This document shows positions 18,593 to 40,694 of a DNA stretch of 41,943 bases, piece by piece. Source of the stretch: a virus. Every line of letters starts with the position of its first letter. The first letter of the stretch is position 1. The notes beneath the pieces were generated by a model. It did no database searches, was not told where the DNA came from, and saw only the letters and a program-made list of their open reading frames with translations. Location: positions 1 to 41,943 of the IMG/VR virus record IMGVR_UViG_3300033143_004823; one strand, written 5' to 3'. A program made the translations under genes and the position numbers.

Positions 18593-18633
18593 TTCAGTCT
18601 CCTTAAAGCGAAAGGTCTTGAAGGTCTGTGCTT

Positions 18634-18668
18634 ACTATACATAGCAATGGAACTACTGGGAACCTTAA
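18634..18668 (-). promoter_or_regulatory. Minus-strand promoter with TTAAGGTT element
   Basis: On the minus strand, TTAAGGTT (18661-18668) is followed after 21 bases by TATAGT (18634-18639), a 5/6 match to the sigma-70 -10 box; TTCCCA sits at the -35 distance. The same element and spacing recur at four other intergenic sites. It lies just downstream of a terminator and 40 bases before the first transferase start, as expected for a fresh promoter for the surface-protein block. Confidence 0.55.
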
Positions 18669-18670
18669 AC

Positions 18671-18701
18671 AAGAAAAGCCCCCACGATTAAGTGAGGGCT
18701 C
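18671..18701 (-). terminator. Rho-independent terminator after the head genes
   Basis: On the minus strand AGCCCTCAC, a short loop, and GTGGGGGCT pair (one mismatch) and run into TTTTCTTGTTT. It follows the 53-codon gene and ends the packaging/head transcript before the surface-protein block. Confidence 0.8.
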
Positions 18702-18716
18702 TTGTCATATTACTAA

Positions 18717-18878
18717 CTACTTTTCTGGTTCCGGCTCTGCTTCTTCCTGTTCGAGCTGTGCTAGGAGCTGCGTGAGAGCTATGTGACCACCCTCAGCTCT
18801 AAGCATCCCGCGCTCGTGTTCTTGGATCGCAGCTTCTGCCCCGCTAATGTATTGTCGGATCAGCTCAAGCGTATCCAT
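18717..18878 (-). CDS. Small acidic helical protein (53 aa)
   Basis: An ATG at 18878, two bases after the previous stop, opens 53 codons to TAG. The protein is helical, with LELIRQYISGAEAAIQEHE and a Q/L/E-rich C-terminus ending in EPEPEK; no motif is recognised. Small helical proteins with Q-rich repeats are frequent beside phage head genes. It is the last gene before the terminator. Confidence 0.65.
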   Translation of the reverse strand: MDTLELIRQYISGAEAAIQEHERGMLRAEGGHIALTQLLAQLEQEEAEPEPEK

Positions 18879-18880
18879 TA

Positions 18881-19582
18881 TTAGGTAATTGCAGTCGCTA
18901 GCGGAATGTAGTATGTCGTGGTGCCCACTAGAATCTTAAAGGATGCGGTCATGTTTCCAACGACCGTGGATCCAGTTAGACCTGTCGTGAACGTCTTGGC
19001 TCCTCCAGCTGTCAGGCCTTGCACATCGAAGAAGACCGCGTCGTCATCGACGTCCGATTGACCGTTAGCATTTCCGCCGTTCACCGCGCGGAAATACGAC
19101 AAGATCGTGCTGCCGCCAGGGTCTGAGTCGTCACCGTCACTATAGATCTCAGCCTGGACAGCGCTCATGGTCACATTGCTTGATAGCGCAACGTCCGGCA
19201 AATGCAGAGTATTACGACTCGCAATGCCCTGCCCAGTGATAGTGCCAGTAGCACCAAAGTTAAGTGAAATATGCGCGCCGTGCGCAGTCGCGCCAGCTAC
19301 ATTTTCCACGGTTGTGAAAACTCGTAGAGCCTCACCGCCACCGCCAGCGCCAGAGACGTACAATCGCAGATACATACCGCGAGCGTCGCCGCTGGTTGCG
19401 CCGTCGTCGAAGTACATAGACATGAACTTCATGTCCGCTGTATCTTCAGTCACGCGCGCTGAGCTGGTTCCGAACTTCATCACGCCACCGTCAGTATTGC
19501 TATCATTGACGTTGACTTTAGAGAAGTCTAGGCGGCTGGCCATGTTGGGAAGATATACCCTCCCCCTCTTCTTGAATGGCAT
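18881..19582 (-). CDS. Beta-rich structural protein (233 aa), probable head-associated
   Basis: Starts MPFKKRGRVYLPNMASRLDF and continues as strands rich in G, S, T and D. MKFMSMYFDDGATSGDARGMYLRLYVSGAGGGGEALRVFTTVENV is followed by a Gly-rich beta core, and the C-terminus has ASFKILVGTTTYYIPLATAIT. There is no signal or enzyme motif. Directly after the zinc-finger gene and the capsid gene, it may be a capsid-associated or fibre protein. The start overlaps the preceding stop by one base (TAATG), with GGAGG eight bases before, so expression is likely high. Confidence 0.6.
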   Translation of the reverse strand: MPFKKRGRVYLPNMASRLDFSKVNVNDSNTDGGVMKFGTSSARVTEDTADMKFMSMYFDDGATSGDARGMYLRLYVSGAGGGGEALRVFTTVENVAGATAHGAHISLNFGATGTITGQGIASRNTLHLPDVALSSNVTMSAVQAEIYSDGDDSDPGGSTILSYFRAVNGGNANGQSDVDDDAVFFDVQGLTAGGAKTFTTGLTGSTVVGNMTASFKILVGTTTYYIPLATAIT

Positions 19583-19857
19583 TATTTGCCTCCGTGTATC
19601 TTGTGCCCGTGAGTCTCTAATGTAGAGTGGTCACGGAATGTTTTACCGCATTCAGCGCATCTAGGAAGCGATCCAGGGGTTCCTTTGAAGGGCTCAGTGT
19701 ATCGTCCGAGTTTCGGATGTCCATCCACCGTGAGCCCCCAAATCGCATCGTCGTTGCGCATTCCTTTTAGCTGGAAAACTTCACCGATATACCGTTGTGA
19801 ACCGGCGTATCCGAAAGACTTCCTGGCTACTACCCATTTACCAGTATAGTTTCCCAT
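19582..19857 (-). CDS. Small protein with a C-terminal C2H2 zinc finger (91 aa)
   Basis: Residues 1-60 are a beta-rich, SH3-like segment (KWVVARKSFGYAGSQRYIGEVFQLKG). Residues about 66-88 read CAECGKTFRDHSTLETHGHKIH, which fits C-x2-C-x12-H-x4-H, a nearly classical C2H2 finger with the F and L core positions in place. Such a finger could bind DNA, RNA or a protein. It lies between the major capsid gene and the next structural gene, with a one-base TAATG overlap downstream. A role in DNA-capsid contact or regulation is possible but not shown. Confidence 0.75.
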   Translation of the reverse strand: MGNYTGKWVVARKSFGYAGSQRYIGEVFQLKGMRNDDAIWGLTVDGHPKLGRYTEPFKGTPGSLPRCAECGKTFRDHSTLETHGHKIHGGK

Positions 19858-19870
19858 TCGTCAAAATCTC

Positions 19871-20848
19871 TTAGCTTACGTCGTCTACAGCATCGGACAT
19901 GAAGAGCCCAGCATTTTTTACAACTGCGACTTGATCGTAGTACGACTTGACTTCGATCCACTCGCCGCCACGCACGTCGTCACGATACTTGCGCACATAC
20001 TGCAGTCCGTTGCCCATTCCGGTGTTCCACGTGAAGGTGTATCCGGCGGAGGGGTTGAAGATGCTCGCTCGGGGCGGAAGGTAAAGCATAAGCGCGTCGT
20101 CGTCCCAGCTAGCAGTATAAGTCACACTAGCCTCAGCAGTACCCTCGGCGTCAGCAGTATAGATGCTCTCGCCAACCAGCACGCGGTCCATATCAAACAA
20201 GGACGCCAGAAGGTCAACGGTCGCAATGCCGCGCTCGGTGTACTTGATGCGTTCGAGAACGTCAGGATGGTCGATCAGCACGTCGCGCGTGAGGTCGCCC
20301 AAAACCAAGGTGTTGGGGTTCCGCCCGATCATGCGGCGGATAGTGCGCTTGAATTCGCGCATGACCTCAACGGGCTCACTCGAACCGTAGTCCGAGAACT
20401 TATCGAAGTCCGTCCCGCCAGTTTTGTCCGTGGTCCAGACGCTGGTCTTCCAGAAATCTGACACAAACGCGCGCTCTCGCTGCAACGCCAATGCATTCGT
20501 CACCAGCAAGGTGGCGTCGCGATCGGAGTTGAAGGGGGCATCTTCGTTCGCCCGACGGTCGTCGGAGATGAAGTGCCGCAGGGCATGCTTGTTGCAGCGA
20601 TAGGTGTTACTCGTGGTTACCGAGTAGCCGATCGCGGCAGGGATATCAGCCTCGCCCAAGGGAACGTCGCCTTGGTTGCGGAAGAATGCGGACTGATCAA
20701 CTTCAGGGATAATGTCTGTCTGCTTTGAGACAGGAACGATGGGAAAGATTTGGTCTGCGATGTACTCAAGATTCTCGTAACCAACGAGGATCTCGGTCAA
20801 CATCTTATTGACGTGTACGTCAGACGCTGAAGGGTTATAAACTGGCAT
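19871..20848 (-). CDS. Major capsid protein
   Basis: A 325-residue protein of the type and length of HK97-fold shells: an N-terminal helical arm (LTEILVGYENLEYIADQIFPIVPV), the E-loop and spine region near VTTSNTYRCNKHALRHFISDD, and a C-terminal strand-rich core ending in YYDQVAVVKNAGLFMSDAV. Downstream and upstream genes are protease/scaffold, decoration and portal, which supports the call. AGGAG lies about 8 bases before the ATG. No gene product here shows an obvious cleaved N-terminus, though a prohead protease is present. Confidence 0.85.
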   Translation of the reverse strand: MPVYNPSASDVHVNKMLTEILVGYENLEYIADQIFPIVPVSKQTDIIPEVDQSAFFRNQGDVPLGEADIPAAIGYSVTTSNTYRCNKHALRHFISDDRRANEDAPFNSDRDATLLVTNALALQRERAFVSDFWKTSVWTTDKTGGTDFDKFSDYGSSEPVEVMREFKRTIRRMIGRNPNTLVLGDLTRDVLIDHPDVLERIKYTERGIATVDLLASLFDMDRVLVGESIYTADAEGTAEASVTYTASWDDDALMLYLPPRASIFNPSAGYTFTWNTGMGNGLQYVRKYRDDVRGGEWIEVKSYYDQVAVVKNAGLFMSDAVDDVS

Positions 20849-20862
20849 TTTCTATTCTCCTA

Positions 20863-21243
20863 TTACTGTGCCCGACCGCGCGGCAGCAAAATCATTTCGC
20901 CAATTTCGCCGGAGCTTCCGCCAACAGTGCAGATGCCAGCAACATAGACGGTAGTATCTGTACCGGCCACAACGGTGTCCGCCGTGCCCGTGGTGCTCGT
21001 GCCAACCAACTGCCCAGCAGTGATGGTCTCGCCAAGCTCAATTTTCGTGTGTCCAGTGATACGGACAGAACAGCCCTGGCCCGTGGTCCCGCCATGCTGC
21101 AACACGCCAACGACTACATCTGTGGCCCCGGAGCACACGTCGGCAGTATCGTCACCATTCATTACAACGAAATGGTAGATACCGGACGACATGTCATCGT
21201 AAGCCTTGAGTGGGATATCAACCCCAGTGTATTGCTTCGCCAT
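20863..21243 (-). CDS. Capsid decoration/stabilising protein (DUF2190-like)
   Basis: A 126-residue strand-rich protein: GIYHFVVMNGDDTADVCSGATDVVVGVLQHGGTTGQGCSVRITGHTKIELGETI. This Gly/Thr/Val-rich pattern is that of the decoration proteins coded just before the major capsid gene in many HK97-type phages. The ATG has AGGAG about 8 bases upstream and shares one base with the stop of the protease/scaffold gene, so the two are coupled. Confidence 0.7.
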   Translation of the reverse strand: MAKQYTGVDIPLKAYDDMSSGIYHFVVMNGDDTADVCSGATDVVVGVLQHGGTTGQGCSVRITGHTKIELGETITAGQLVGTSTTGTADTVVAGTDTTVYVAGICTVGGSSGEIGEMILLPRGRAQ

Positions 21244-22409
21244 TAAACTTCTCCTACAATATCAATACTAGAAATGTTCTTCACGTGTTCCGTGTCGTAT
21301 TCGGCGTACAGATCGGGGTGTTCACTAAATACAGCAACCACCGCGTCGCCACGCGACATTCCATTTGCCTCTTTCTCTTTCACGAGCTTCTCGATCTTGG
21401 AGTCGCCAGACTCGGCTTCGTGGCCCTCATGGCCAATTTCTCCGAATAGCGAAGCCATCTTCTCGCGGTTCCCCAATGTCTCTAGGACACTAACGATGCG
21501 ATTGAAGTATACCTTCTCTTCACTCTCGTCATTGTCCTCAAGCCACAAAAGAACTTCTGCGAAGTCGGTCGCCTCTTCAGGTAAGCCTTCAATCTTGCTG
21601 GCTTTCTCAGAGAACTGCAGCATTCGCAACTCACGCTCGGCCTTCGCCTGAGCTTCGTTGTATACTGTTAGCTCGCCGTCTTTTTCCGACAGCGCTTCTT
21701 GGAGCGCGGTGATCTCAGCATCCTTCGTCTGCAGCTGATCAGCAAATTCTTGTGCATTATCAGTGTCTTCGCTGCTATCGCCGGGCTCGTCTTCATCTTC
21801 CTCGCTTGCGGGTTCGCGCTTGAACAGATCCATAAACCAGCTGCCTAGATTCAGCTTCACAGCGTCCTCTGCAATCTGCTTCATCTGCTCAACGTTGTCC
21901 TCGCTCAAGGCGTTGTTTACTTCAGACATAGATTCCTCCGAATTGTCTTGTTCTACCCAATTTCCGTCCTCAAATACAAGCGTCGCGGCTCCGAGCCTCG
22001 GACGCGGTGTAATTGCCATGCCCAGTGCAACATTATTGTAGTATTTCCCGCTTACGTCTTCATACCCATTGAACCACACTTCTGGAGAGGCATATAGATA
22101 GCCCTTGTCCCTTAGTGTGTCAACGGCACCCTCCCTAAACTCAGGGAGCCATTCGACGCCGCGCTCAGAGATTCGTAAATCACTAACGAATCCGTAAATA
22201 CCGACACTGTCATCATGGCGTTCGTTTACCGGCAGCTTGTAGTCTGGGACTGGCCGCCTGAAGTTCATTACCATCTCCTCACCATCTTCTGCGGTGAAGT
22301 CCTTGGTAATGCCCATGTGATGTACTTCCCTGAATGGGAAGAATAATCGCCATCCATCATCAAGCTCGTCGCTGTCAAATGGAATTAGAAAACGTAGATC
22401 GTTTTTCAT
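21243..22409 (-). CDS. Prohead protease-scaffold fusion (Mu I-like)
   Basis: Residues about 1-165 resemble phage Mu I-type prohead proteases: FTAEDGEEMVMNF, then PVNERHDDSVGIYGFV, with the His of NERHDD and the Ser of YASPE (about residue 112) as the likely catalytic pair; LGMAITPRPRL follows, as in the family's AlT..P. Residues about 175-290 are an acidic, helical scaffold with coiled-coil heptads (LQTKDAEITALQEALSEKDGELTVYNEAQAKAERE). The C-terminal part is helical. The start is the ATG at 22409; a TTG ten codons upstream lacks a binding site. At 388 residues it is the usual size for a protease plus built-in scaffold. Confidence 0.7.
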   Translation of the reverse strand: MKNDLRFLIPFDSDELDDGWRLFFPFREVHHMGITKDFTAEDGEEMVMNFRRPVPDYKLPVNERHDDSVGIYGFVSDLRISERGVEWLPEFREGAVDTLRDKGYLYASPEVWFNGYEDVSGKYYNNVALGMAITPRPRLGAATLVFEDGNWVEQDNSEESMSEVNNALSEDNVEQMKQIAEDAVKLNLGSWFMDLFKREPASEEDEDEPGDSSEDTDNAQEFADQLQTKDAEITALQEALSEKDGELTVYNEAQAKAERELRMLQFSEKASKIEGLPEEATDFAEVLLWLEDNDESEEKVYFNRIVSVLETLGNREKMASLFGEIGHEGHEAESGDSKIEKLVKEKEANGMSRGDAVVAVFSEHPDLYAEYDTEHVKNISSIDIVGEV

Positions 22410-22429
22410 TATTTTGTTACCATATGTAT

Positions 22430-22465
22430 ATTCTAACAATAGTAGTAAACTACGCGCAACCTTAA
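22430..22465 (-). promoter_or_regulatory. Minus-strand promoter with TTAAGGTT element
   Basis: On the minus strand TTAAGGTT (22458-22465) is followed after 22 bases by TAGAAT (22430-22435), and the protease/scaffold start lies about 20 bases further. The 8-base element overlaps the stop codon of the preceding small gene. It matches the other four sites in this window. Confidence 0.5.
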
Positions 22466-22635
22466 AGCAGTTCTGTGTAGTTTTCTAACACAAATTGCTT
22501 CTGAACCTTGGCTATTTTAACGGGCCTCTTGCCATGCATTGTAATTACATAGTTCCCGTACCCGCTATTGTCTTCAAGGTATCTGATAAGCGATAGGTAT
22601 CTCATTATTGTGCTCGCCGATATTTCTTGTTTCAT
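22462..22635 (-). CDS. Small basic protein of unknown function (57 aa)
   Basis: ATG at 22635 with GAGG five bases upstream; 57 codons to TAA. The protein has an N-terminal helix (TIMRYLSLIRYLEDNSGYGNYVITMHGKRPVK) and a basic strand/helix C-terminus. The look is winged-helix-like, without a decisive motif. It lies right after the HAD-like gene with a 2-base gap and before the promoter of the capsid genes. A regulator of those genes is one possibility. Confidence 0.6.
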   Translation of the reverse strand: MKQEISASTIMRYLSLIRYLEDNSGYGNYVITMHGKRPVKIAKVQKQFVLENYTELL

Positions 22636-22637
22636 AA

Positions 22638-23159: not shown

Positions 23160-23254
23160 ATTACCATTACCGCCCCGAGGAGGGTAAGGAATACTAACCC
23201 TATAATCTGAGCAAGATCTTCATTCTCTATGATGTAGCTAGAAATTTCGTCCAT
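23147..23254 (-). CDS. Small single-span membrane protein (35 aa)
   Basis: ATG at 23254 opens 35 codons: an acidic head (MDEISSYIIENEDLAQ) and one hydrophobic segment (IIGLVFLTLLGAVMVICLL). It overlaps the end of the portal gene by 17 bases and the start of the next gene by 13 bases, in a different frame. Longer openings upstream would run deep into the portal gene and are unlikely. No binding site is obvious, which keeps confidence moderate. If real, it would sit in the inner membrane and could be a lysis or exclusion factor. Confidence 0.45.
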   Translation of the reverse strand: MDEISSYIIENEDLAQIIGLVFLTLLGAVMVICLL

Positions 23255-25259
23255 GGTATTTGTACGTGATATAGCAACGATCGTTCCCGCCGCACAACCT
23301 CTGCCCAATAGGCGTGATATTCGGCGGGTCTGTCCATCCAAGATCTTCTAGAGCTTCGCACTCAGAGCATACGCGCTCGTCATTCTCTGTGATGTTCTTT
23401 GCAAGCACGCCATCGCTGTGAATCCGCCCGTTCTTCCAGTCCATCTGCACTTTGTTGCGCGGGAAGACATTGTTGATGCGAAGCTTTGCTCTCCACGCTG
23501 TAGCATGGTTGCCAAAGATTTTATACGTTGAGCCCGCATACATCCGTAGCCTGTATGTGAACGACGCCAACACACCACGTATCGCGTCCGCGATAATGTC
23601 AGTTGCGTATCCGCCCAACTCTCTTAGTTTGTCTATCAGCGCCGACGATATAGATTTTCTCAGACTGGAGTCTAGGTAATCAGCTTGGAATATCAGCTCG
23701 CCAACAATTGCTTTGTAGCCTTCGAGCGGTGGGCTGTCGCCAACGAATTTGATCCACGCAGCAATCATTCCCTCTGCGAGACTTCCCTTAACTTCATCTA
23801 AGAACCTGTCCATATAGACGTCGATGATGTCCGCCCACTCGTCTTCGTCTTTCCCGGCGAGATCCTCTGGCAGCGCTCCCAACTCGCGCTCGTAGATGTT
23901 TAGTACTTCCTGCGCGACTGACGCCGTGAATGCGGCAGCCGAAGTAGCTGTAATTGAATCTGCGAACTCAGACATTTTAGTGTCTTGCTCTGCAGGTAAC
24001 TTGACATCCTGTACGTCTTCGCCCTCTGGCGGCTCTCCTGGAGATTGATCCGCAGGTAAGTTCGGCTTGAGTAGTAGTCCGGGCTCGTCTATTTGTTCGA
24101 TGCCGATCATCCGCCTAACTTGGTTCTCAGTCTCCATGTTGTAGGTGATTGCGCCTGCATTGAATAGAGAGCTGATGATGGTTGCGAAGTCGCCAACATC
24201 AATCTTTGAGATCTTGTCGAAGTATACCTCTGGCAACTTGTCTGTTTCAGGCATGCTGTTGAGCTCAAATAAGCGCGGAACTGCATGGCGGTTGATAATG
24301 GCAGCTATTTTGTCTAGGTATGTGTTCAGAGCGATTACATACAGGGACGACTTGTCCTTAACCATCGCGTAAGAGCCACCGCCGCTGCCAATCATGATGA
24401 AGTCCATCATCATCGTCCTGGCCTCGTCTTCTTGATGGCGCCTGATAACTTCGCCTATACTAATAGCAGGCCCGTTGGCAGGCATCTTGTACTCGAAACC
24501 CCAGCCATACGGAAGCGTTAACCCCATATCGTCACCAAGCTTAATGTTTCTTGCTACTGACTTGGCTCGTATAACGTCTTCACTGCCTTCTGATGTGTCA
24601 GCGTTCTCTGGCAGCGTAACTGTTGGCGTGCCCGATAGGCGCTCGCAAACTACTGCCTCTAGGATAGATAGGTTCTTGACGAAAAACCACGAAGTGTACG
24701 CTGCCTCGAAACAGCTGATCCCCTCTACGTTGTTCTTCCCTGCGCCGGTGGTTGTGAAGTGCAACAGCTTCTCAATAGGGATAAAGACTTCCGTCTTCTG
24801 CCACGACTGCCACATTCCACTAAGCCCGCCGGACTCATCAAATTCCCATTTGTCCAAAGTAACTGGGTGCCGAGGCGCCCACTTGCGCCACTCAACACCG
24901 CCATCGTCGCCCTTTTTGTATACAATCTCCATGTCCATCCACCCGTAGACAAGGAAATATACTATGTCGCCAATCACGTCCTCGAATGACTTGGACATAT
25001 TGTGGAGGTTGTATTCTAAGAACTCTGCTTTGTCTTTATCAGCTGAGGTATCACCGCCGTCTTCAACATGCAGGCGTGCGCCTTGTAGAAACATTTTGGT
25101 GGTATTAAGCATGGCGCTACCGATAGGGTCTAGCCTGCTGATCTCATCGAAGACTTTGACTTTGCGCGAGCTTGAGCGCAAGTCCCTAATCCACGACTCG
25201 CTGACTACTCCGTTGAACTGGAGGGTGCCAGGCGTGCCAAGTTCATTGAAATTCGCCAT
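23238..25259 (-). CDS. Portal protein fused to a minor head (Mu F/SPP1 gp7-like) C-terminus
   Basis: Residues about 20-430 look like a DUF935/Mu gp29-type portal: FDEISRLDPIGSAMLNTTKMFLQG, a WMDMEIVYKKGDDGGVEWRKWAPRHP strand set, LLHFTTTGAGKNNVEG, and SFVMIGS-like AMVKDKSS later. Residues about 440-560 are a helical linker. The last about 90 residues carry the Mu F/SPP1 gp7-like head morphogenesis pattern (NDERVCSECEALEDLGW, PPNITPIGQRLCGGNDRCYITYKY), rich in Cys. In Mu the portal and F are separate genes. At 673 residues the protein is longer than a usual portal, consistent with fusion. Confidence 0.75.
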   Translation of the reverse strand: MANFNELGTPGTLQFNGVVSESWIRDLRSSSRKVKVFDEISRLDPIGSAMLNTTKMFLQGARLHVEDGGDTSADKDKAEFLEYNLHNMSKSFEDVIGDIVYFLVYGWMDMEIVYKKGDDGGVEWRKWAPRHPVTLDKWEFDESGGLSGMWQSWQKTEVFIPIEKLLHFTTTGAGKNNVEGISCFEAAYTSWFFVKNLSILEAVVCERLSGTPTVTLPENADTSEGSEDVIRAKSVARNIKLGDDMGLTLPYGWGFEYKMPANGPAISIGEVIRRHQEDEARTMMMDFIMIGSGGGSYAMVKDKSSLYVIALNTYLDKIAAIINRHAVPRLFELNSMPETDKLPEVYFDKISKIDVGDFATIISSLFNAGAITYNMETENQVRRMIGIEQIDEPGLLLKPNLPADQSPGEPPEGEDVQDVKLPAEQDTKMSEFADSITATSAAAFTASVAQEVLNIYERELGALPEDLAGKDEDEWADIIDVYMDRFLDEVKGSLAEGMIAAWIKFVGDSPPLEGYKAIVGELIFQADYLDSSLRKSISSALIDKLRELGGYATDIIADAIRGVLASFTYRLRMYAGSTYKIFGNHATAWRAKLRINNVFPRNKVQMDWKNGRIHSDGVLAKNITENDERVCSECEALEDLGWTDPPNITPIGQRLCGGNDRCYITYKYHGRNF

Positions 25260-25262
25260 TGA

Positions 25263-25631: not shown

Positions 25632-25668
25632 AAGTTTCTCCTGCAAGTATATTTCTAGTCACAACAAT

Positions 25669-25703
25669 ATTCTATTACGTTACCGAACCAAGGTAAACCT
25701 TAA
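25669..25703 (-). promoter_or_regulatory. Minus-strand promoter with TTAAGGTT element
   Basis: On the minus strand TTAAGGTT (25696-25703) is followed after 21 bases by TAGAAT (25669-25674), then about 38 bases to the holin-like start. The -35 position reads TTTACC. It sits in the 74-base gap after the terminase large subunit stop. Confidence 0.5.
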
Positions 25704-25705
25704 CG

Positions 25706-27379
25706 CTAGTACGGACTCCATCTCCCGCCACTTATCTCTCTAGGCATGTTAGCTATTGACCTGCTCATTGATTCCATGCGCTCTTCAGTTCTCATGACTT
25801 CTTGCTCTGGCAAGTGCGTGACGGCTTTAACTCCACCGACTATGGCGTATCTAAGAGCGTCGCAGAAGTCAGAGTTGCTTGTCTCAAATGCGTTCCTGTC
25901 AAATCCACCATTTCTCAGACTCTTGTGTTTGTAGTTTTGCATTGCGTCGTCAAGTTGTGGGCAACGGTCGGTGTCAATAAGTAAGCTGATTTCTCCAGAG
26001 TTGTCCAGCAAATAATCTCTTACGATGGCTACTCCGTATATCACTCCGCCTACTTCCTTTGGCACTGTCTGCGCACTAAGGCTTTTCGGAAAGCCTCTGA
26101 TAAGGTCTCCAGCAGGTCTCTCTGCCCAGAATGTGCTTATCACTAAGCCGTATTCGTCCAGGATCTCTGACTTTATCCTGGCGCATGCGTAAATGAGCTT
26201 GCTAGGCGTGTTGCTCTCGTCTGCCCATTCTCTGACAACCCACCTTTTGTGCTTTCCGTTAGGGAGCGTCTGCGGTGACTCAAGTATTACTACGATTCTA
26301 CCGCGCCCGCGCATATCTATACCAGCGAATGCGCGCCACGCAGAGATGTCGTGCTCAGTATCCTTAAATGCTTTCTTGTTACGCTTAGAGTATTGTGAGT
26401 ATACTAATCCCTGAGAAGCTCCTGTCATAAGCAGAGATTGCAGCGCGAATGATTCGGCGTTGATGTTTGCAAACTTGGAAACGGCATCTCTGAATGTGTA
26501 ATGCCCGTCAGACTGAGCTATTCTCCCATTGCATAGCTCTTCCTCTGCCCCTGTATATGGGTTCTTCCACATATAGAACGGGCAGTCCTCGCATTGGTCT
26601 GGGTACTGTTTTCCGCACGACTCCATTACATCGAATAGATCATAGCGATATGTCTTGATCCCTCTGTCCTCAGACGAGTCGAGCATATCCTGCAATGTGC
26701 CAGTTGTGTGGTATTGTGACGACGCAAGCAACGCAACTGATTTGTATTGCTTGTTGCTCTGAGGCATCTGCAGAGCAGTATTCAATGGGCCTGGATCAAT
26801 GTGATCGAGCTCGTCCACAATTAGGACTTGTGGGTGCGGACCAGAAACTGCTTTCTCAGAACCGCCAGTACGGATCTCTATCCTAGACCCATTTGAGAGC
26901 ACGGTCTTAGTGACCCTCGGCTCTCTGTCTAGCAAGTGCGTGAGATGCTTGTTGTAGACAAGCCCTGTAACGCCATCCACAGCAGAGTTGCCGCTCAAGT
27001 ATGCGTAACCAGAAATAGCCTGCTCTTGAGATCCAGCAACAGCGACGATGTAGATATTGGGCTTGAAGACCATTAGAGCATATTCAAGGATAGCGAACCC
27101 AAGCGTCTTGCCGCCACCGCGCGGGCCTTGCGCCAGCATGGTTGGGTATCTCTCAAAGTATGCGTCCGCAATGAACTGGAATGGAGCTTGGTGTTCTGGG
27201 TCTGTAGTAGTCCTGGCTATCTTGTAACCAAGTACATCTCTAATCCATTCGTAGAGTTCGTCGTCAGTCTCTGGAGCCTTGAGTGCTTTTTCAGATATCC
27301 TGCGAGCCCTCTCCTTCAATGCGTCCATCAGCATCTGCTGTGTCAGGGCTTCTTGAGATAACTGTGACTGTTTCTGCAT
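25706..27379 (-). CDS. terL: Terminase large subunit
   Basis: An ATPase-nuclease of 557 residues. Residues about 80-95 hold the Walker A loop (AQGPRGGGKT), and about 185-195 the Walker B (VLIVDELDH). A four-Cys cluster (C-x7-C-x2-C near residues 253-265 and a further C near 281) looks like a small zinc-binding insert. AGIDMRGRG (about residue 345) and a terminal D-x-CDALRYAI give the acidic residues of the RNase H-like nuclease. The start is the ATG at 27379, with GAAGAGG upstream; it overlaps the small-subunit frame by 89 bases. Function: packaging the genome into the prohead. Confidence 0.9.
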   Translation of the reverse strand: MQKQSQLSQEALTQQMLMDALKERARRISEKALKAPETDDELYEWIRDVLGYKIARTTTDPEHQAPFQFIADAYFERYPTMLAQGPRGGGKTLGFAILEYALMVFKPNIYIVAVAGSQEQAISGYAYLSGNSAVDGVTGLVYNKHLTHLLDREPRVTKTVLSNGSRIEIRTGGSEKAVSGPHPQVLIVDELDHIDPGPLNTALQMPQSNKQYKSVALLASSQYHTTGTLQDMLDSSEDRGIKTYRYDLFDVMESCGKQYPDQCEDCPFYMWKNPYTGAEEELCNGRIAQSDGHYTFRDAVSKFANINAESFALQSLLMTGASQGLVYSQYSKRNKKAFKDTEHDISAWRAFAGIDMRGRGRIVVILESPQTLPNGKHKRWVVREWADESNTPSKLIYACARIKSEILDEYGLVISTFWAERPAGDLIRGFPKSLSAQTVPKEVGGVIYGVAIVRDYLLDNSGEISLLIDTDRCPQLDDAMQNYKHKSLRNGGFDRNAFETSNSDFCDALRYAIVGGVKAVTHLPEQEVMRTEERMESMSRSIANMPREISGGRWSPY

Positions 27380-27893
27380 CTACAACCTCTTCAATAGCAA
27401 TCTCTGTAACGTCTTCTCCGCTGTCGATGGCGCCTTGTAATTTAGCAATGAGCGAGTTTAGCTTGTCATCATCATACTTGCCAAAATCGAATACGTTTAT
27501 CGTTTGCGTGCGCTGATCAATTGTCCCATGCGCTTGAGAGCCCTCTTCTTTGCGAATGTAATCCAGGATGTCTAACGGGTCCATGTCAGTAAGCGGCTCG
27601 TCATTGCGGATGCGTCTGTCGAGCTGATCCTGAAGCATGGTATGTGCGTACCCTATACGGCGTTCCTTATCAGCGATAGGAAGATACTTTAGCCTGCGGT
27701 TAATCTCTTCGTTGACGCGCTTGCCGGTGTTAGACGTGGCGTTTAGAATGGAAATTATGTAAGTGATACTAGCCCCAGAGGCAGCACTGATAGCAGGGTA
27801 GTCGTGTGGCGTAACTACGCCAAGCCTTGCTAGAATACAGTCCATTATGATTTGCTGCTTCTCTGTGAATGCTCGGCGAGCCATGGGTTTCAT
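27291..27893 (-). CDS. terS: Terminase small subunit
   Basis: An N-terminal helix-turn-helix (FTEKQQIIMDC, then YPAISAASGASITYIISIL, about residues 8-55) is followed by a long helical region with coiled-coil character and an acidic C-terminus. That layout, and the position immediately before the large subunit, fit a pac/cos-recognising small terminase. It overlaps the large subunit by 89 bases. The ATG at 27893 could be the first base of its transcript (see the promoter entry); a second ATG three codons later is equally possible. Confidence 0.7.
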   Translation of the reverse strand: MKPMARRAFTEKQQIIMDCILARLGVVTPHDYPAISAASGASITYIISILNATSNTGKRVNEEINRRLKYLPIADKERRIGYAHTMLQDQLDRRIRNDEPLTDMDPLDILDYIRKEEGSQAHGTIDQRTQTINVFDFGKYDDDKLNSLIAKLQGAIDSGEDVTEIAIEEVVDAETVTVISRSPDTADADGRIEGEGSQDI

Positions 27894-27906
27894 GAGACCA
27901 TTGTCT
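27893..27906. repeat. Short perfect palindrome next to the terminase start
   Basis: GAGAC-CATT-GTCTC on the plus strand, a 5-base perfect inverted repeat with a four-base spacer. It covers the -10 and the terminase start and may be a regulator site; chance is possible because it is short. Confidence 0.35.
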
Positions 27907-27934
27907 CATTAATTTCAAGGTATGCGAACCTTGG
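27900..27934 (-). promoter_or_regulatory. Possible minus-strand promoter for the terminase genes
   Basis: CCAAGGTT (27927-27934) is followed after 21 bases by GACAAT (27900-27905) on the minus strand, the same layout as the other promoters but with a weaker -10. Transcription would begin near 27893, the A of the small-terminase ATG. The first two bases of the element and of the -10 deviate, so it is tentative. Confidence 0.35.
27916..27933. promoter_or_regulatory. Operator-like dyad in the divergent promoter region
   Basis: CAAGGT (27916-27921), six bases, and ACCTTG (27928-27933) form a perfect 6+6 inverted repeat. Each half equals the AAGGT core of the recurrent promoter element. It lies between the two divergent promoters, so a symmetric protein could act on both. 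Confidence 0.5.
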
Positions 27935-27943
27935 ACGAAGTGG

Positions 27944-27971
27944 TTGAATTAAATGCAGAATATGTTATAAT
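27944..27971 (+). promoter_or_regulatory. Plus-strand sigma-70-like promoter
   Basis: TTGAAT (27944-27949), 16 bases, TATAAT (27966-27971), with TGT before the -10 giving an extended -10. Start is expected near 27978, exactly the A of the HNH gene ATG, and no ribosome-binding site precedes that ATG. Confidence 0.75.
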
Positions 27972-27977
27972 AGTCAT

Positions 27978-28325
27978 ATGGGAAACAGAGGAAATATTGT
28001 TAGAGAGCTGAAAACAAAGTACGATCCTATTATCATAGAGCGAGAGCATGGGAGATGCTTCGTCTGCGGCGCCGTAGGGCGCGATGTGCATGAGATTCTA
28101 TCGAAGTCTCATTTTGCCACTGGCGGTTTAGAGCAATGTATCAGCCCAATGAATATGGTATTGCTGTGCCGTAAGCACCACGATATCGTTCAGGGGATCG
28201 CAGGGTGGATTGGGTATCTGTTCAGGGGAATGCACTCCAGATACGGATACGATTACACACACACTGAATTCTACTGGTATTACACCAGCGAATTTCCAGA
28301 ACGGCCATTGGAGCTTTATGACTAA
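27978..28325 (+). CDS. HNH nuclease-like protein
   Basis: Residues about 26-75: CFVCG, then VHEIL, then NMVLLCRKHHD. That is the C-x2-C, H, N, C-x2-H pattern of HNH endonucleases with a structural zinc. HNH genes are often coded beside terminase, where they help cos cleavage and packaging; here it lies divergently, across a shared promoter region. The C-terminus is aromatic-rich (WIGYLFRGMHSRYGYDYTHTEFYWYY). It overlaps the next gene by 8 bases. The start is at the expected transcription start and has no Shine-Dalgarno. Confidence 0.8.
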   Translation: MGNRGNIVRELKTKYDPIIIEREHGRCFVCGAVGRDVHEILSKSHFATGGLEQCISPMNMVLLCRKHHDIVQGIAGWIGYLFRGMHSRYGYDYTHTEFYWYYTSEFPERPLELYD

Positions 28326-34795: not shown

Positions 34796-34804
34796 GGAGA
34801 TAAA

Positions 34805-34993
34805 ATGTTCGGTGGTATAATTGCAGTAATGTTCGCTGCGGCGACAATCTTTTATTGGTATCTGGGTATCATGGGGCTCGCTGGTGGATGGGCGATGTCT
34901 GTGTGTGGGTTGCTGCATTTGGTGATCTGTGTTTTGTTTTCGATTCTAACGTGGGGGAATAATGTCAAAAAGTTTAACAAAAACGTGGACTAA
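34805..34993 (+). CDS. Small two-span membrane protein, holin candidate (62 aa)
   Basis: Two hydrophobic segments (IIAVMFAAATIFYWYLGIMGL and MSVCGLLHLVICVLFSILTW) separated by a short Gly-rich turn, with a basic C-terminus (KKFNKNVD). GAGGAG lies five bases before the ATG. Its place directly after the lysin, its size and topology are those of class II holins, which release the lysin at the set time. It overlaps the next gene by 32 bases. A second holin-like gene lies near the terminase. Confidence 0.65.
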   Translation: MFGGIIAVMFAAATIFYWYLGIMGLAGGWAMSVCGLLHLVICVLFSILTWGNNVKKFNKNVD

Positions 34994-35447
34994 ACGCATC
35001 ATTGAGTTCCAGACATATTGCACAGAGCATGAGATGGAGTGGTTGACATATAATGATATGTCCGCCATTGCTAATATCAGCAAGTCTAATATCTACGTGA
35101 AGATGGCTGAGATCATTGAGGAAATGCCACATGCATACATCGAGGAGTCTGACGGGTCAGCGAAGCGGTTTAAGTTTGACTTCGACGCGATGCTTGCAGA
35201 CAGCGAGAAAAAGCCAGAGAACCCAGACATCATACCCGACTGGCTGAATAATAACTCGTATGATAATCTCAGGGAAAGACTCTCTGAGGACGTTGGCGAG
35301 AACTGCTATCTGAAATTCAGCAAGAGCGGAGCCTTCAACGCTAGGTTCCAAAGGGGCGGTATAGCAATTGAGTGCTATGAGACTGGGCATAGGCATCCAG
35401 AGTGGGAGAAGATACTCAGGATTGACAATTGCATTGTGCTAAACTAA
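34962..35447 (+). CDS. Putative DNA-binding regulator (161 aa)
   Basis: The N-terminal about 70 residues are helical with LTYNDMSAIANISKSNIYVKMAEIIEEMP, where an HTH-like turn is plausible, followed by ESDGSAKRFKFDFD. The C-terminal half is mixed, with basic YLKFSKSGAFNARFQRGGIAIECYE. No metal or enzyme motif. It is the last gene of the plus-strand unit and ends just before a terminator. A regulator role is a guess from the helix pattern. Confidence 0.5.
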   Translation: MSKSLTKTWTKRIIEFQTYCTEHEMEWLTYNDMSAIANISKSNIYVKMAEIIEEMPHAYIEESDGSAKRFKFDFDAMLADSEKKPENPDIIPDWLNNNSYDNLRERLSEDVGENCYLKFSKSGAFNARFQRGGIAIECYETGHRHPEWEKILRIDNCIVLN

Positions 35448-35485
35448 AAAAGGGGAGTCCTTAATCGGGCTCCCCTGATTTTTTG
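35445..35485. terminator. Bidirectional Rho-independent terminator
   Basis: AGGGGAGTCC, loop TTAATC, GGGCTCCCCT (35451-35476) forms a 10-base stem with one G-U pair. It is preceded by AAAAAA and followed by GATTTTTT, so it has a T-run in both directions. It lies between the converging plus-strand unit and the nuclease gene on the minus strand. Confidence 0.9.
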
Positions 35486-35487
35486 TG

Positions 35488-36603
35488 TTATTGGCTATAT
35501 GCTGGGAGTCTCTCGCGGATAAAGCTATCGAACTTTGTCACGTCTAATCTGTAATCTGGATATAGCATTTTAATACCGCGCTCCTGAAGTGCGATCTTTT
35601 TGTCATAGTCGTTCTGCTGTTGCCGAGCAAGTTTACCACTGCCTTTTTTGCCATGAAATCTTGGGATGTATTCAAAATGTTGCTGGCCCTGATATTCAAA
35701 TCCAAGCATCAGTTCTTCATTGAATCCATCTATCTCTAATACATAGCCATGACGATTTCTTAGCCATGCTGGCCTAATAGAATGGAACGGGCGCCCTGTT
35801 ATATTTTCAATTGCGTTACGGAAAACGCCCTCTCTATATCCTATTTTGCAGCATATCGGGCACCATTGGTCGCGATATAAAATATTCTGCGCCGCAGTTC
35901 GCCATTCATGTCCCTTAGAGCATCTCCAGCGCAGCTTTGTGAGCGTATTCACATATTTGTTAGATAGGCATTCTCCCCCGCGCTCTGCGGCGAGCCCGCG
36001 CATTTCTTCTATTGTATGCTTCCTGTGTATCTTGGCATTAGCAACTCCCGCGCATTTCTTACACCATCTGCCACTTCTGACGCTGGCGCTATGGGCATAG
36101 AATTCGTGCCCGTGCTTGCATCGCCATAATAACTTTGTTGTGCTATTGATATATTCACTAGATAGGCATTCCCCGCCGCGCTGCGCAGCCATAGAGCGCA
36201 TATCCTCTATCGCGTATTTAATAAGGCTTCTCCCATATCGTTCCGCATAGCATTGCGGGCACCATTTGCCTTGTTTAATTAAGCTAGGAGTAGTGAGCCA
36301 TTCATGGCCCCTGGAGCATCGCCATAACAATTTTATCTGGTGGCCCTCATACTCATTTGACAGACATTCTCCGCCTCTTTCTGCGGCAATCTTTTGCAAG
36401 TCCTCCAGCGTGACTACGTGCCCGGCGCATACTCGGCACCATGTGTCGGTGTATAAAATACCCTGCGGTATTGCTTCCCATATATGCCCCTTAGAGCACT
36501 TAAAAGTTAATTTTGTTCTCGTACTAATATATTTATCTGATAAACATTCGCCACCTTTTGCGCGAGCTAATTCTTTGATTTCTTCTATCGTGTGTTTAAC
36601 CAT
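35488..36603 (-). CDS. Four zinc-ribbon repeats plus Vsr/EDxHD-like nuclease
   Basis: Four units of about 60-65 residues each: GGECLS..Y, TKL.W.CS.GHEW, then W-C-x2-C. The ligands C, H, C, C suggest treble-clef or zinc-ribbon fingers, as in DNA-binding arms. Residues about 265-371 match Vsr-like/EDxHD nucleases: EIDGFN, then GFEYQGQQHFEY and a DYDKKIALQERGIKMLY segment. Such proteins often act as free-standing homing or mobility nucleases. It lies directly downstream of the intein-bearing reductase gene and has its own promoter and strong GGAGG site, so it is not just read-through. Confidence 0.7.
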   Translation of the reverse strand: MVKHTIEEIKELARAKGGECLSDKYISTRTKLTFKCSKGHIWEAIPQGILYTDTWCRVCAGHVVTLEDLQKIAAERGGECLSNEYEGHQIKLLWRCSRGHEWLTTPSLIKQGKWCPQCYAERYGRSLIKYAIEDMRSMAAQRGGECLSSEYINSTTKLLWRCKHGHEFYAHSASVRSGRWCKKCAGVANAKIHRKHTIEEMRGLAAERGGECLSNKYVNTLTKLRWRCSKGHEWRTAAQNILYRDQWCPICCKIGYREGVFRNAIENITGRPFHSIRPAWLRNRHGYVLEIDGFNEELMLGFEYQGQQHFEYIPRFHGKKGSGKLARQQQNDYDKKIALQERGIKMLYPDYRLDVTKFDSFIRERLPAYSQ

Positions 36604-36608
36604 ATGAT

Positions 36609-36649
36609 TTCAGCCTCCAATTTATGTATAGTATAAACTAGAGGCTGAA
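36609..36649. repeat. Inverted repeat flanking the nuclease-gene promoter
   Basis: TTCAGCCTC (36609-36617) and GAGGCTGAA (36641-36649) are perfect complements 23 bases apart. One arm overlaps the ribosome-binding site of the nuclease gene (GGAGGCTGAA on the minus strand), the other lies in the promoter spacer; the -10 is between them. A DNA-binding repressor could bind both arms. Confidence 0.55.
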
Positions 36650-36665
36650 GGTAGTGCAACGTTAA
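36630..36665 (-). promoter_or_regulatory. Minus-strand promoter with TTAACGTT element
   Basis: TTAACGTT (36658-36665), 22 bases, TATACT (36630-36635) on the minus strand; TTGCAC lies 18 bases before the -10 as a good -35. It drives the zinc-ribbon nuclease gene and fits the pattern of the other four sites. Confidence 0.6.
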
Positions 36666-36687
36666 ATGTTATATGTACACAGTCGCT

Positions 36688-39600
36688 TTATGCATTACAG
36701 AGCGAATATCCACAGCTGCTGCATAAGACGCAGGATTCAGTCATATGAATTGTATTAATCCCGCCACACGACGGGCACTTAATATCACCCCTGCTATTGA
36801 CTGAGAATCCATATGACGTCTTTTCCCACTCATACTCTATCAGTGGCCTGTCTTCATATGCATTCACCATCATTTTATAGAGTATCTCTCCTATCTCTGC
36901 TGCATACCCGCCAGTTTTGATGAGCTGGTTAACGACCTTTTCTGGCGTTACACCATGTCGCAATGCCATAGAGACCATCCTGCCTATAAGCTCGCTTACC
37001 CTGCTGTCTCCATTGATGAATACCTCTACTGGCTCAACGTCGTCATTGAAGTTCACGGTAACGTATGTCTTGCGCCCGCCGTCGTTATGGACTCTGGTAT
37101 ATCCAGATAGTTCTTTGTCGCGCTCTGGCATTAGTGTAAATGCGATTTCTTTCTTCTCTGGCTTCGCGAGCGGTTGCCACATCAAACTTTGGTCACGGTA
37201 CACAGTTAAGCCTTTCACTCCACCGCGCATTGCTAGTTTATAGATCCGCTCTATATCCTCCACCGTAGCGCTATTTGGCAAATTGATCGTTTTACTAATT
37301 GAGTTAGTTACATATGCCTGCGCATACGCCTGCATCATTAGATGGTCTTCGGGGGCGATCTCCTGTGCGGAGCGGTATTTGCCATCTCCAGTAAGATCAT
37401 ATAGACTTTCGCCATCAAGCACTCGATCAATGTATTGCTCTGGGATAGAAAGATGTGCCATATTCAACACTGCGTCTTCCCCAGATTTCGAGACCATTGT
37501 CCTACGATGTGCAAAAAGGAAAACCGGCTCGATCCCAGAACTGCACTCAGAAATCAAGGAGGTAGATCCCGTCGGCGCTATCGTTGTGACTGACATATTC
37601 CGCAAGCCGTTGCGCCTGACGATATCAAAGGTCATTCTTAGCTTGCTGTTAATATCCGCCATGCTATTATGATCAAGCATTCGAATTGGGCTGAACAAAT
37701 TCTCTGTAATGAATCTACTCCCAGAGAACACTGGTGCAGCCCCGTACTTCTGAGCCATCCCAGAGCTGATAAGGTAAGCAGTGTTTGTTATATTAGCCAT
37801 CACACGAGCAATCTCTAACCTGCCAGTCTCAGAGCCGTATTGCAAGTCCTTGTCAATGAGATAGTCATGCACGCCCATAACGCCGAGACCGATATCGCGA
37901 TATCGCAAATTCGTATCTGCGATTTGCTTCAGAGGGAATGAGTTGATATCAATGATGTGATCTAGGAAACGCGTGGCAATACGTGCGTAGCGATTGATCT
38001 CTGGTATACTACCGCATTTGGCTATGTCGATTGCCATTAGGTTGCATGAGCCATTACTCATCAGGAACTGCTCTCCGCAGTTTGACACGATTAGCCCGCC
38101 AGTCCAGTATGTGTGCTCTGGAGAATCTACGGTAATGTCATAAACATCAAACTTACCAAGTAATTCGCGTGATACGATAGTTGCATACTTGTCGCCGTTA
38201 AGTACACCGCCAAGTTCTCCATATTTATACGGCTGTATAAATCCAACTTTAGCAAAGAAAATTCCGCGATCCGTGCTAATATTCAGATCGTAGCTTTGTC
38301 TCCCTGTGTATGTGCCATTATGATGTTTCACAGTTGTTGATTTGTTAGTTGTATAATACGAACGGATACCAATGGACGATAGCATGTCTTGCGCCATCTC
38401 TATAATGCTCAAGCTAGACGCCTTTAGTGATACTCTAGCAATGCGATCCCCTCTGTATATTGAACACCCGTTCGCAGAATATAATCCACGCAGGAAACCC
38501 CTTACCTTCTTTTCATCTCCCTGATAGAATCTCTCTGGGATAGTTCTGTTGTATGTCCTCGGTAACTCGTCTGCCCGCACAGTTGTTGTAATAGTCCACG
38601 CGCCAGTGCCTTTTTCTCTATCGTATACGTGGATTCCTGGGAAATTATTGAGAAGATCAGATATCTCTGAATCAAAGTACGAAAGATCATTTTCTCCAAT
38701 GTATAGAACGACCTTGTTATTGCTGGCCGCATGGACAGACCCGTCACCGATAACTAATCCATCCATCACGTCTTGCGGGTCAAGCTCGCTAGCTAATGAG
38801 CACACGCCACCGCCGACAAGAATCTCATGTGCCTCAGATACGTTTAGTTTTCCATGTTTAGTTACAACGCGATGGTTTTCTGTGCCTACAAATCTCCCTG
38901 ACGTTGTGCCGTAGACATACACGTCTTTTGTGCCCGTGCGCAATTTACGCGCCACTGTTGTCCACGCATTACCAGACCATATAACACTACCAGTATCTAT
39001 ATCTTTGAATTGTCTAATACCAGAAGGCGTTAATACTGTAGCGAATGCTGGCTGGCAAGGGTTAGTAGCATCACACGGCATTGTATTCGAATACGCGCTG
39101 TACTCATTGTGCCTGCTCGTGAACACTATCCCAGGATCGCCAGTCTTCCATGCATTCTCTGCAATCATATGCAGGTATTCACGAGCGTTGATTGTCCCTA
39201 TGTCCCCAGATTTCTCATGAGTAAATACTACGTCGCCGTCCTCGTCTAGCAATCTAATGAACTCGTCTGGGTTTATGTCTAATGAGATGTTGAAGTAACT
39301 TAGTACGCTCTTGCCATCATTGTCCTTTTTGGCGCTGATAAAGTCCATTGCGTCTGGATGGTCGTAGTCCAGTATGCCCATTAAGGCAGCTCTGCGCTTT
39401 CCGCCCTGTTTGATTGCGTCGGCAGATACGTCAAAGACTTTCATGAAAGAAAGTGGCCCTGAGCTGACTCCCCCTGCTCCATTAACAGCACACCCTTTAG
39501 GGCGGAGCTTTGAGAAGTCAAACCCGACTCCTCCGCCGCTCTGGGTTACTAGCGCCATTTCTCTGAGAGCTGTATAGATTGATTCCATACTATCTTCTAT

Positions 39601-39951
39601 GCCGAGGACAAAGCAAGCGCTCAATGACCCATTACTACGCCGTGAGTCGTATATCTCTTGGTAATCGCTAAGCGACATCTCGCTAATGTCTTTGTATAAA
39701 AGCGACACGGAAGTGTTGAATCCAGCCGAGAACAAGGTCGGGCTGTTAGGGATAATGTATCTACGCATAATAGCATCGTAGAAGATTGCTTCGTTAGTCT
39801 TAATATCTGTCAGGGTATCTTCTCCACGTACTACCCCAGCAGACGCAACGTACCTAGATACACGCTGCGCTATTTGCTCCCACGATGACTCATGCTCTGT
39901 GTAATATCTATCACGTAACAACTTCTCTACGACGGAACTATTCTTGAACAT
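36688..39951 (-). CDS. nrdJ: Class II (B12-dependent) ribonucleotide reductase with in-frame intein
   Basis: The host protein has the class II features: NSPTLFSAG, SACFVLGIEDS with the first redox Cys, TQSGGGVGFDFSKLRP, then NP-C-GEQ (after splicing) holding the thiyl-radical Cys, SCNLMAID with the partner Cys, and TIAPTGSTS. The C-terminus has a CPSCGG...CVLCSSC cluster. It turns ribonucleoside (di/tri)phosphates into deoxyribonucleotides using adenosylcobalamin. A 326-residue intein interrupts it at residues 299-624; the spliced enzyme would be about 761 residues, the usual monomer size. ThyX and Nudix genes nearby complete a dNTP-supply unit. Confidence 0.9.
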   Translation of the reverse strand: MFKNSSVVEKLLRDRYYTEHESSWEQIAQRVSRYVASAGVVRGEDTLTDIKTNEAIFYDAIMRRYIIPNSPTLFSAGFNTSVSLLYKDISEMSLSDYQEIYDSRRSNGSLSACFVLGIEDSMESIYTALREMALVTQSGGGVGFDFSKLRPKGCAVNGAGGVSSGPLSFMKVFDVSADAIKQGGKRRAALMGILDYDHPDAMDFISAKKDNDGKSVLSYFNISLDINPDEFIRLLDEDGDVVFTHEKSGDIGTINAREYLHMIAENAWKTGDPGIVFTSRHNEYSAYSNTMPCDATNPCQPAFATVLTPSGIRQFKDIDTGSVIWSGNAWTTVARKLRTGTKDVYVYGTTSGRFVGTENHRVVTKHGKLNVSEAHEILVGGGVCSLASELDPQDVMDGLVIGDGSVHAASNNKVVLYIGENDLSYFDSEISDLLNNFPGIHVYDREKGTGAWTITTTVRADELPRTYNRTIPERFYQGDEKKVRGFLRGLYSANGCSIYRGDRIARVSLKASSLSIIEMAQDMLSSIGIRSYYTTNKSTTVKHHNGTYTGRQSYDLNISTDRGIFFAKVGFIQPYKYGELGGVLNGDKYATIVSRELLGKFDVYDITVDSPEHTYWTGGLIVSNCGEQFLMSNGSCNLMAIDIAKCGSIPEINRYARIATRFLDHIIDINSFPLKQIADTNLRYRDIGLGVMGVHDYLIDKDLQYGSETGRLEIARVMANITNTAYLISSGMAQKYGAAPVFSGSRFITENLFSPIRMLDHNSMADINSKLRMTFDIVRRNGLRNMSVTTIAPTGSTSLISECSSGIEPVFLFAHRRTMVSKSGEDAVLNMAHLSIPEQYIDRVLDGESLYDLTGDGKYRSAQEIAPEDHLMMQAYAQAYVTNSISKTINLPNSATVEDIERIYKLAMRGGVKGLTVYRDQSLMWQPLAKPEKKEIAFTLMPERDKELSGYTRVHNDGGRKTYVTVNFNDDVEPVEVFINGDSRVSELIGRMVSMALRHGVTPEKVVNQLIKTGGYAAEIGEILYKMMVNAYEDRPLIEYEWEKTSYGFSVNSRGDIKCPSCGGINTIHMTESCVLCSSCGYSLCNA
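38080..39057 (-). other. Intein with LAGLIDADG homing endonuclease inside the reductase gene
   Basis: The host sequence splits between TNP and CGEQF. The insert begins with Cys (CQPAFATVLTPSG, block A), has GTENHRVVT (block B, with its T..H), ends with YDITVDSPEHTYWTGGLIVSN (blocks F and G) and is followed by Cys. The penultimate residue is Ser, not the common His. The middle carries two LAGLIDADG-type motifs (DGLVIGDGSV and FLRGLYSANG, about 87 residues apart). It would splice itself out, and the endonuclease would copy it to intein-free reductase genes. Confidence 0.9.
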
Positions 39952-39956
39952 TCAAC

Positions 39957-40592
39957 CTACCTTGTTATCTCATTAACCAAAAGCCGTGACCAGCTCTCGT
40001 ATTCTAAATTACCCAGATCCTCTATCGACACAAACCCACAGTGCTCTTCGATAAATGCGTCAGGCTCATTTAGCCTATACGCCTCACCAGCTACCATTGT
40101 CTTCATTACAATGCCAACATGGTCTTTGCCTACTGAATTTGAGTTGTCATTGATGATGTATGTGTATTGTAGTGTGCCAGCCGAGCCGAATTCCACTTCC
40201 TCATCAAGCTCTCTGTTCGCGGCGCGATATATGGCATCATAGAAGTCGCCCCCCACCATTATATCATTGAGATTCACATGCCCGCCAACGCCAATAGAAT
40301 ACAGCCTGCTCAGGCGCGCGTCGCCTCTGTTGCGTCTATATGTGAATATCGAATGAGTCGATGGGCACATCACATATACGTAGACAACAGCCTGCTTCCA
40401 TAGCGGATTTCCTTCAAGGTCGCATTTGTTCGCTACGATGGACGCATCTATTAGATCGTCAAATTTCCACACACCGCGCATATCGCACGGTTGTATTTGT
40501 TGCTTAAATAGTGCGTTAACTCCGCTTGCTGATAATGCGAGAATTTGCTCGTCTGTGCCAAGGTGCTTGGCTAGCCTGTTCTTGAAAAACAT
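39957..40592 (-). CDS. Nudix-like hydrolase (211 aa)
   Basis: GVGGHVN and, about 20 residues on, AANRELDEEVEF match the Nudix box end R-E-x2-E-E; the part between them is longer than in the consensus, so it is a divergent member. Nudix enzymes split nucleoside diphosphates linked to another moiety. The first 80 residues are an unrecognised extension. AAAGGA lies about 7 bases before the ATG at 40592; a longer GTG-start form exists but has no such site. It sits between thyX and nrdJ and could clean or tune the nucleotide pool. Confidence 0.65.
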   Translation of the reverse strand: MFFKNRLAKHLGTDEQILALSASGVNALFKQQIQPCDMRGVWKFDDLIDASIVANKCDLEGNPLWKQAVVYVYVMCPSTHSIFTYRRNRGDARLSRLYSIGVGGHVNLNDIMVGGDFYDAIYRAANRELDEEVEFGSAGTLQYTYIINDNSNSVGKDHVGIVMKTMVAGEAYRLNEPDAFIEEHCGFVSIEDLGNLEYESWSRLLVNEITR

Positions 40593-40619
40593 TTGTCTGT
40601 CCTTTGAGGGGTAAAATAT

Positions 40620-40646
40620 GGGCGGCATCGTTGAATGATACCGCCC
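40620..40646 (-). other. Stem-loop in the 5' leader of the Nudix gene
   Basis: On the minus strand GGGCGG-T-ATC, loop ATTCAAC, GAT-G-CCGCCC: a 6-base GC stem, one mismatch, and 3 more pairs. It lies between the predicted start (about 40653) and the ribosome site, so it could act as an RNA control element. Only a weak T-run (ATATTTTA) follows, so it may also end upstream transcription. Confidence 0.5.
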
Positions 40647-40659
40647 TGATAACACTACT

Positions 40660-40694
40660 ATTGTAACAAATCTATCAAGCTTTGTGAACGTTAA
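40660..40694 (-). promoter_or_regulatory. Minus-strand promoter with TTAACGTT element
   Basis: TTAACGTT (40687-40694), 21 bases, TACAAT (40660-40665) on the minus strand, with TTCACA at the -35 position. It drives the Nudix and reductase genes, with a start near 40653. Confidence 0.6.

Follow-up and report, generated by a model that had tools for sequence, protein, structure and literature searches.

The stretch of DNA analysed here (the window) is a linear fragment of 41,943 bases from an IMG/VR virus record (G000), which by its gene content belongs to an uncultured tailed phage. Comparison with relatives suggests a full genome of about 60 kb. Portal, scaffold, major capsid, terminase and ribonucleotide reductase genes lie on the minus strand (Table 1), together with the end of a thymidylate synthase gene, and the plus strand encodes an exonuclease, RecA and an amidase-domain protein. 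No tRNAs were found. The phage collection gave zero matches to the window at the DNA level, and its one match in the genome collection, a Chloroflexi MAG contig, did not give a host. For comparison we used contig G001, which is 99.9% identical to the window over the stretch compared and runs 12.4 kb past the window end; these 12.4 kb (locus L039), upstream of the window, are referred to below as the early region. The true relatives were G002, at 76-80% nucleotide identity, and G005/G006, whose portal is 71% identical.

Table 1. Positions of promoters and genes discussed in the text (L039, early region; all other positions, window).
Feature	Position	Strand	Sequence or remark
W1	18634..18668	(-)	TTAAGGTT CCCA GTAGTT N11 TATAGT
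W2	22430..22465	(-)	TTAAGGTT GCGC GTAGTT N12 TAGAAT, with TGN
W3	25669..25703	(-)	TTAAGGTT TACC TTGGTT N11 TAGAAT
W4	36630..36665	(-)	TTAACGTT GCAC TACCTT N12 TATACT
W5	40660..40694	(-)	TTAACGTT CACA AAGCTT N11 TACAAT, with TGN
W6	27900..27934	(-)	CCAAGGTT (27927-27934) CGCA TACCTT N11 GACAAT, with TGN
Conventional promoter	27944..27971	(+)	TTGAAT-16-TATAAT (TGN); divergent from W6; without the element
Early promoters	L039:243-282, 1009-1048, 2693-2732		TCTCATTAAT-N22-TATAAT, extended -10 (TGN); three copies, contig G001
Major capsid gene	19871-20848	(-)
Scaffold gene	20863-21243	(-)
Portal gene	23238-25259	(-)
Terminase gene	25706-27379	(-)	Weak match
Ribonucleotide reductase gene	36688-39951	(-)

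Six sites with a common element

A preliminary description of this DNA had listed five minus-strand sites, at which the 8-mer TTAASGTT stands at a fixed distance from a -10 sequence, and a sixth with a variant 8-mer. The coordinates, strand and spacings of the five proved exact: a pattern search returned five matches on the reverse strand and none on the forward strand, and the reversed-pattern control returned none. The window contains exactly five copies of TTAASGTT, and each is followed by TANANT, at 21 nt (three sites) or 22 nt (two sites). The sixth site, in which the 8-mer is followed at 21 nt by GACAAT, is also real; it had been placed before the terminase gene, but the first gene behind it is the small ORF 27291-27893, and the large terminase gene comes after that. 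A second copy of the variant 8-mer (22504-22511) has no -10 at the W6-like distance. None of the six -10 sequences is TATAAT, and three of the six are extended by TGN (Table 1).

The sites precede genes of several functions. W1 lies 41 nt upstream of the ATG of 17897-18592, where the Shine-Dalgarno sequence is AAGGAG, and a terminator-like hairpin (18703-18674) finishes just upstream of it. W2 is upstream of the ATG at about 22409 of the 21243 gene, after which come the scaffold and major capsid genes, and W3 is 37 nt from an ATG at about 25631, in the gene that precedes portal. W4 lies 26 nt from the ATG of 35488-36603, whose product is HNH/zinc-finger endonuclease-like, and W5 stands ahead of the gene at 39957, with the ribonucleotide reductase gene after it. 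The ORF behind W6 had no match in PHROGs; judged by its position ahead of the large terminase gene, it is probably the terminase small subunit. According to the preliminary description, a gene start follows each site by 14-100 bases, which fails for W6, with only 6 nt between its -10 and the ATG.

Two further features were seen behind W5. The product of 39957-40655 (-) has, by eye, a Nudix-box-like stretch (GGDFYDAIYRAANRELDEEVEF), for which Pfam gave no match. A 10-bp hairpin at 40600-40650 (-) spans the likely ATG of the gene and is kept in G002 (L041:780-830 (-)), with a compensatory change of a G-C to an A-U pair (GGGCGG/CCGCCC to GGGCAG/CTGCCC); masking of the start codon is a possible function.

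Chance does not account for these sites. The 8-mer alone occurred on average 1.27 times per shuffle, with a maximum of 5, in 200 dinucleotide shuffles, and not one of the 200 contained a single site with the 8-mer, spacing and -10 combined. The full unit, AASSTT-N4-NNSSTT-N11/12-TANANT, had 6 matches in the window versus a shuffle mean of 0.07. Nor is the 8-mer equally common inside genes, since all five copies are intergenic by the gene model, in which intergenic DNA makes up 3.3% of the window. A motif-blind search for hexamers that recur at a constant distance before intergenic -10 sequences of the window and early region recovered AAGGTT and its overlapping neighbours TTAAGG and TAAGGT, and no others; a hexamer with three occurrences turned up in 7 of 300 shufflings of the intergenic DNA.

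A two-part box and its conservation

The block that the preliminary description had put just ahead of the -35 position and partly within it is a real motif, but it is the upstream half only of a longer box; a second half-site, SSTT, whose end lies 11-12 nt from the -10, had been missed. Across the five spacers as originally defined, TT stands at an identical offset in 5/5 (chance about 5e-4 with random spacers). All six window sites read AASSTT-N4-NNNSTT, with a 10-bp period and an end 11-12 nt before the -10. The first half-site is written AASSTT because the G002 ortholog of W5 has AACCTT there, and the second is NNSSTT or near it in nearly all sites, orthologs included, with one GTGGAT. As the consensus AASSTT is its own reverse complement, a direct and an inverted repeat cannot be told apart. 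A looser pattern, AASSTT-N8-TT-N10..13-(-10), found the six promoters and nothing else in the window, no site in the early 12.4 kb, and four orthologs plus one extra site in G002.

With the -10 counted as -12..-7, the first half-site occupies about -39..-34 and the second about -29..-24, flanking the position of the -35 hexamer that sigma region 4 would contact. Within this hexamer, TT alone is conserved across the sites, and the class as a whole has no TTGACA-like -35 at 16-18 nt. Single sites reach up to 5/6 of TTGACA, and W5, W1, W3 and W6 keep 4-5 of 6 at 17 nt; therefore, weak factor-independent activity of these four is possible.

Every comparable site is kept in relatives down to 71% identity (portal protein). 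When W1, W2, W3 and W6 are aligned with their orthologs, conservation is seen in AAGGTT, the downstream half-site and the -10, and the flanks diverge. W1 has AAGGTT, AGTT and TA.A.T invariant in L012, W2 is retained in L007, L009 and L012, W3 in L007, L011 and L012, and W6 in L007 and L013 with both AAGGTT and TACCTT. W4 has the same sequence in the 99.9% identical contig, the one ortholog compared, and the W5 ortholog in G002 is TTAACCTT TCAC AAGCTT N11 TACAAT, with unchanged spacing. Weightier than its outcome in the window, the motif-blind search returned AAGGTT at 20-21 nt as the sole recurrent hexamer in G002, G005 and G006.

Outside these relatives the element is at background level: its AASGTT form had 12 matches across 2.88 Mb from phage loci that are distantly related or unrelated, a rate of 0.17 per 42 kb, and no recurrent AASGTT-type -35 hexamer was found in distant relatives identified through their major capsid protein (L018-L033, 31-51% identity). 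Matches in L027 lie inside ORFs and were discarded. Rfam gave no match, and the element is not described in the open-access literature searched. Among the genomes compared, the element is confined to one phage clade.

Mobile DNA was seen in two of the relatives. A 0.7-kb insertion in G002 (L007:12119-12834) has repeated CTCCCTG...CAGGGAG hairpins, is IS200/IS605 remnant-like with no match in Rfam, and bears an additional promoter of the motif class that points the other way (G002:C1:6771+). In G006, the W6 ortholog is separated from the terminase genes by an IS605-type TnpB gene and a ribbon-helix-helix ORF (L042:9176-10527), so that the phage promoter appears to serve the mobile element.

Promoters without the element

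The plus-strand promoter divergent from W6 is conventional and lies 6 nt from the ATG of the HNH-like ORF 27978-28325. Its orthologs are TTGAAT-16-TATAAT in G002 and TTGAAC-16-TATAAT in G006, that is, three lineages with the window. Both divergent promoters (27893-27905 (-) and 27966-27980 (+)) have the -10 six nt before the ATG, in G002 likewise, and their transcripts are possibly leaderless.

The early region contains zero motif-class sites and has TGNTATAAT promoters. The three early promoters of Table 1 form a second promoter class: two stand directly before a ribosome-binding site and a gene or ORF, whereas the third is followed by an ORF of 12 codons. One TTTACA-16-TATAAT, with TGN, is also present. 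The early promoters were found via a TATAAT search, and the contrast between TATAAT in early promoters and its absence from the motif class, which partly rests on that choice, is suggestive only. A fourth TCTCATTAAT lies in the window on the plus strand (27904-27913), antisense across the W6 -10. A search of all viral contigs with TCTCATTAAT-N20-24-TATAAT yielded numerous matches, each single and scattered among the contigs, and this promoter type was dropped as an identifier beyond its own phage. Ser-Pro/Ser-Ala repeats were noticed in the products of small ORFs of both the early region (L039:4685-4924) and the window (17369-17554).

Proposed activation of the class and its possible activator

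Degraded -35 sequences, imperfect -10 sequences, a fixed two-part box over the -35 and the middle or late operons served argue for dependence on an activator. We give a probability of about 0.7 to the reading that the six sites form one phage-specific, factor-dependent promoter class, at which host RNA polymerase would start transcription with its primary, sigma70-type sigma. We infer that a protein made early, most likely phage-encoded, would bind both half-sites across the -35 and recruit or reposition polymerase via sigma region 4 and/or the alpha-CTD, in a CII-like manner; an alternative route would be a remodelled sigma, as with T4 MotA/AsiA. Once the TGNTATAAT-driven early genes have been expressed, such activation would switch on the operons for nucleotide metabolism, packaging and capsid. 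The sequence itself shows the element, its spacing and intergenic position, its conservation and restriction to a clade, and the conventional promoter that contrasts with it; transcription from the sites, its timing, and the activator with its contacts are predicted.

The λ CII site is TTGC-N6-TTGC. Its repeats straddle the -35, according to a passage of PMC3335776 that cites Jain et al. 2005, and in 6/6 window sites a pair of short half-sites, offset by about one helical turn, likewise flanks the -35 of a promoter with a sigma70 -10. This geometry is closest to that of CII, although the half-sites here are AASSTT/NNSSTT rather than TTGC, and several operons, capsid and packaging included, would be served rather than lysogeny. 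In T4, early promoters are strong sigma70 types, and at middle promoters the MotA box replaces the -35 at 12±1 from the -10, with TGN at about half of them (PMC2988021). The class described here is similar in having a box in place of the -35, which ends 11-12 nt from a sigma70 -10, and TGN at 3/6 sites. However, T4 has a single 10-bp box (wwwTGCTTtA) bound by a MotA monomer, as opposed to two half-sites of another sequence, and its middle promoters need an excellent -10, whereas those here are imperfect. In E. coli, the end of the Pho box and the -10 are separated by 10 bp (PMC1906773); class II promoters of PhoB/PhoP (OmpR family) also have a direct repeat in place of the -35, which stops about 10 bp short of a sigma70 -10 (PMC1906773, PMC3335776), but with a period of 11 bp, compared with 10 bp here, and a different sequence. 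Taken together, this is a known kind of promoter class with a new sequence, real and specific to a phage clade.

The preliminary description had left a choice between a phage-specific -35 or activator motif and a preference of the host sigma. The former is supported by a bipartite element that is confined to the clade and kept at orthologs. That the sites are ordinary host sigma70 promoters, in which the block is the host's own -35 or upstream preference and no phage activator takes part, we consider unlikely: the last TT of the 8-mer does fall at the TT of TTGACA, W5 can be read as TTCACA-17-TACAAT (5/6 and 5/6), and a promoter scan detected W1, W3 and W5, but the conserved bases flank the -35 hexamer, with AAGG on one side and SSTT on the other, and leave out its ACA half, and both the neighbouring plus-strand TTGAAY-16-TATAAT of three lineages and the early-region promoters do without the element.

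A constant distance to the -10 and limitation to one phage clade would also fit a phage-encoded sigma, or an alternative sigma of the host, for which the element would be the -35. This is improbable, as the -10 is sigma70-like, with TGN at half of the sites, a bipartite 16-bp box is unusual for a -35, and no sigma factor was present among the scanned proteins; the only Sigma70_r4 match, a weak one in G002, corresponds to the HTH in an endonuclease-like protein whose window ortholog is 40728-41630. The half-sites might instead be operators, holding a repressor over the -35 until late, when conventional sigma70 initiation would follow. They overlie the -35 and are near self-complementary (AASSTT), as in many operators, and W6 is an inverted repeat, AAGGT-N6-ACCTT. 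A repressor, however, requires neither strict spacing to the -10 nor a degraded -35 and imperfect -10, and should rather be paired with a good basal promoter; we regard this explanation as very improbable.

Candidates for the activator were sought. CII (PF05269) was found in 0/5 contigs, all of them fragments, and its control matched in E. coli and Caulobacter. The Trans_reg_C domain of OmpR/PhoB was absent from the phage contigs, likewise fragments; a host regulator could conceivably act instead. The MotA profile PF09114 had no match, but its control was silent too, and MotA may yet be encoded; among the early ORFs scanned against PHROGs, none was MotA. The best candidate, as yet unproven, is a 153-residue protein of the early region (L039:8405-8866) with a C-terminal winged-HTH match. 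AlphaFold folds of this and a second HTH-like protein (window 34962-35447) were too poor to use (pLDDT 35 and 34), and neither product had a tblastn match in phages. The ribbon-helix-helix protein behind the W6 ortholog of G006 was rejected, being beside a TnpB gene that is missing at the same place in the window and having no window homolog itself. Tentatively, the activator could be of no known family and restricted to the clade, binding near-self-complementary AASSTT half-sites across the -35 and with its own route to polymerase.

For most uncultured phages, regulation is not known. Here, sequence comparison alone gives a promoter class, a binding geometry and the operons served, and the class offers both a handle for the activator search and a pattern to predict late operons in related viruses.
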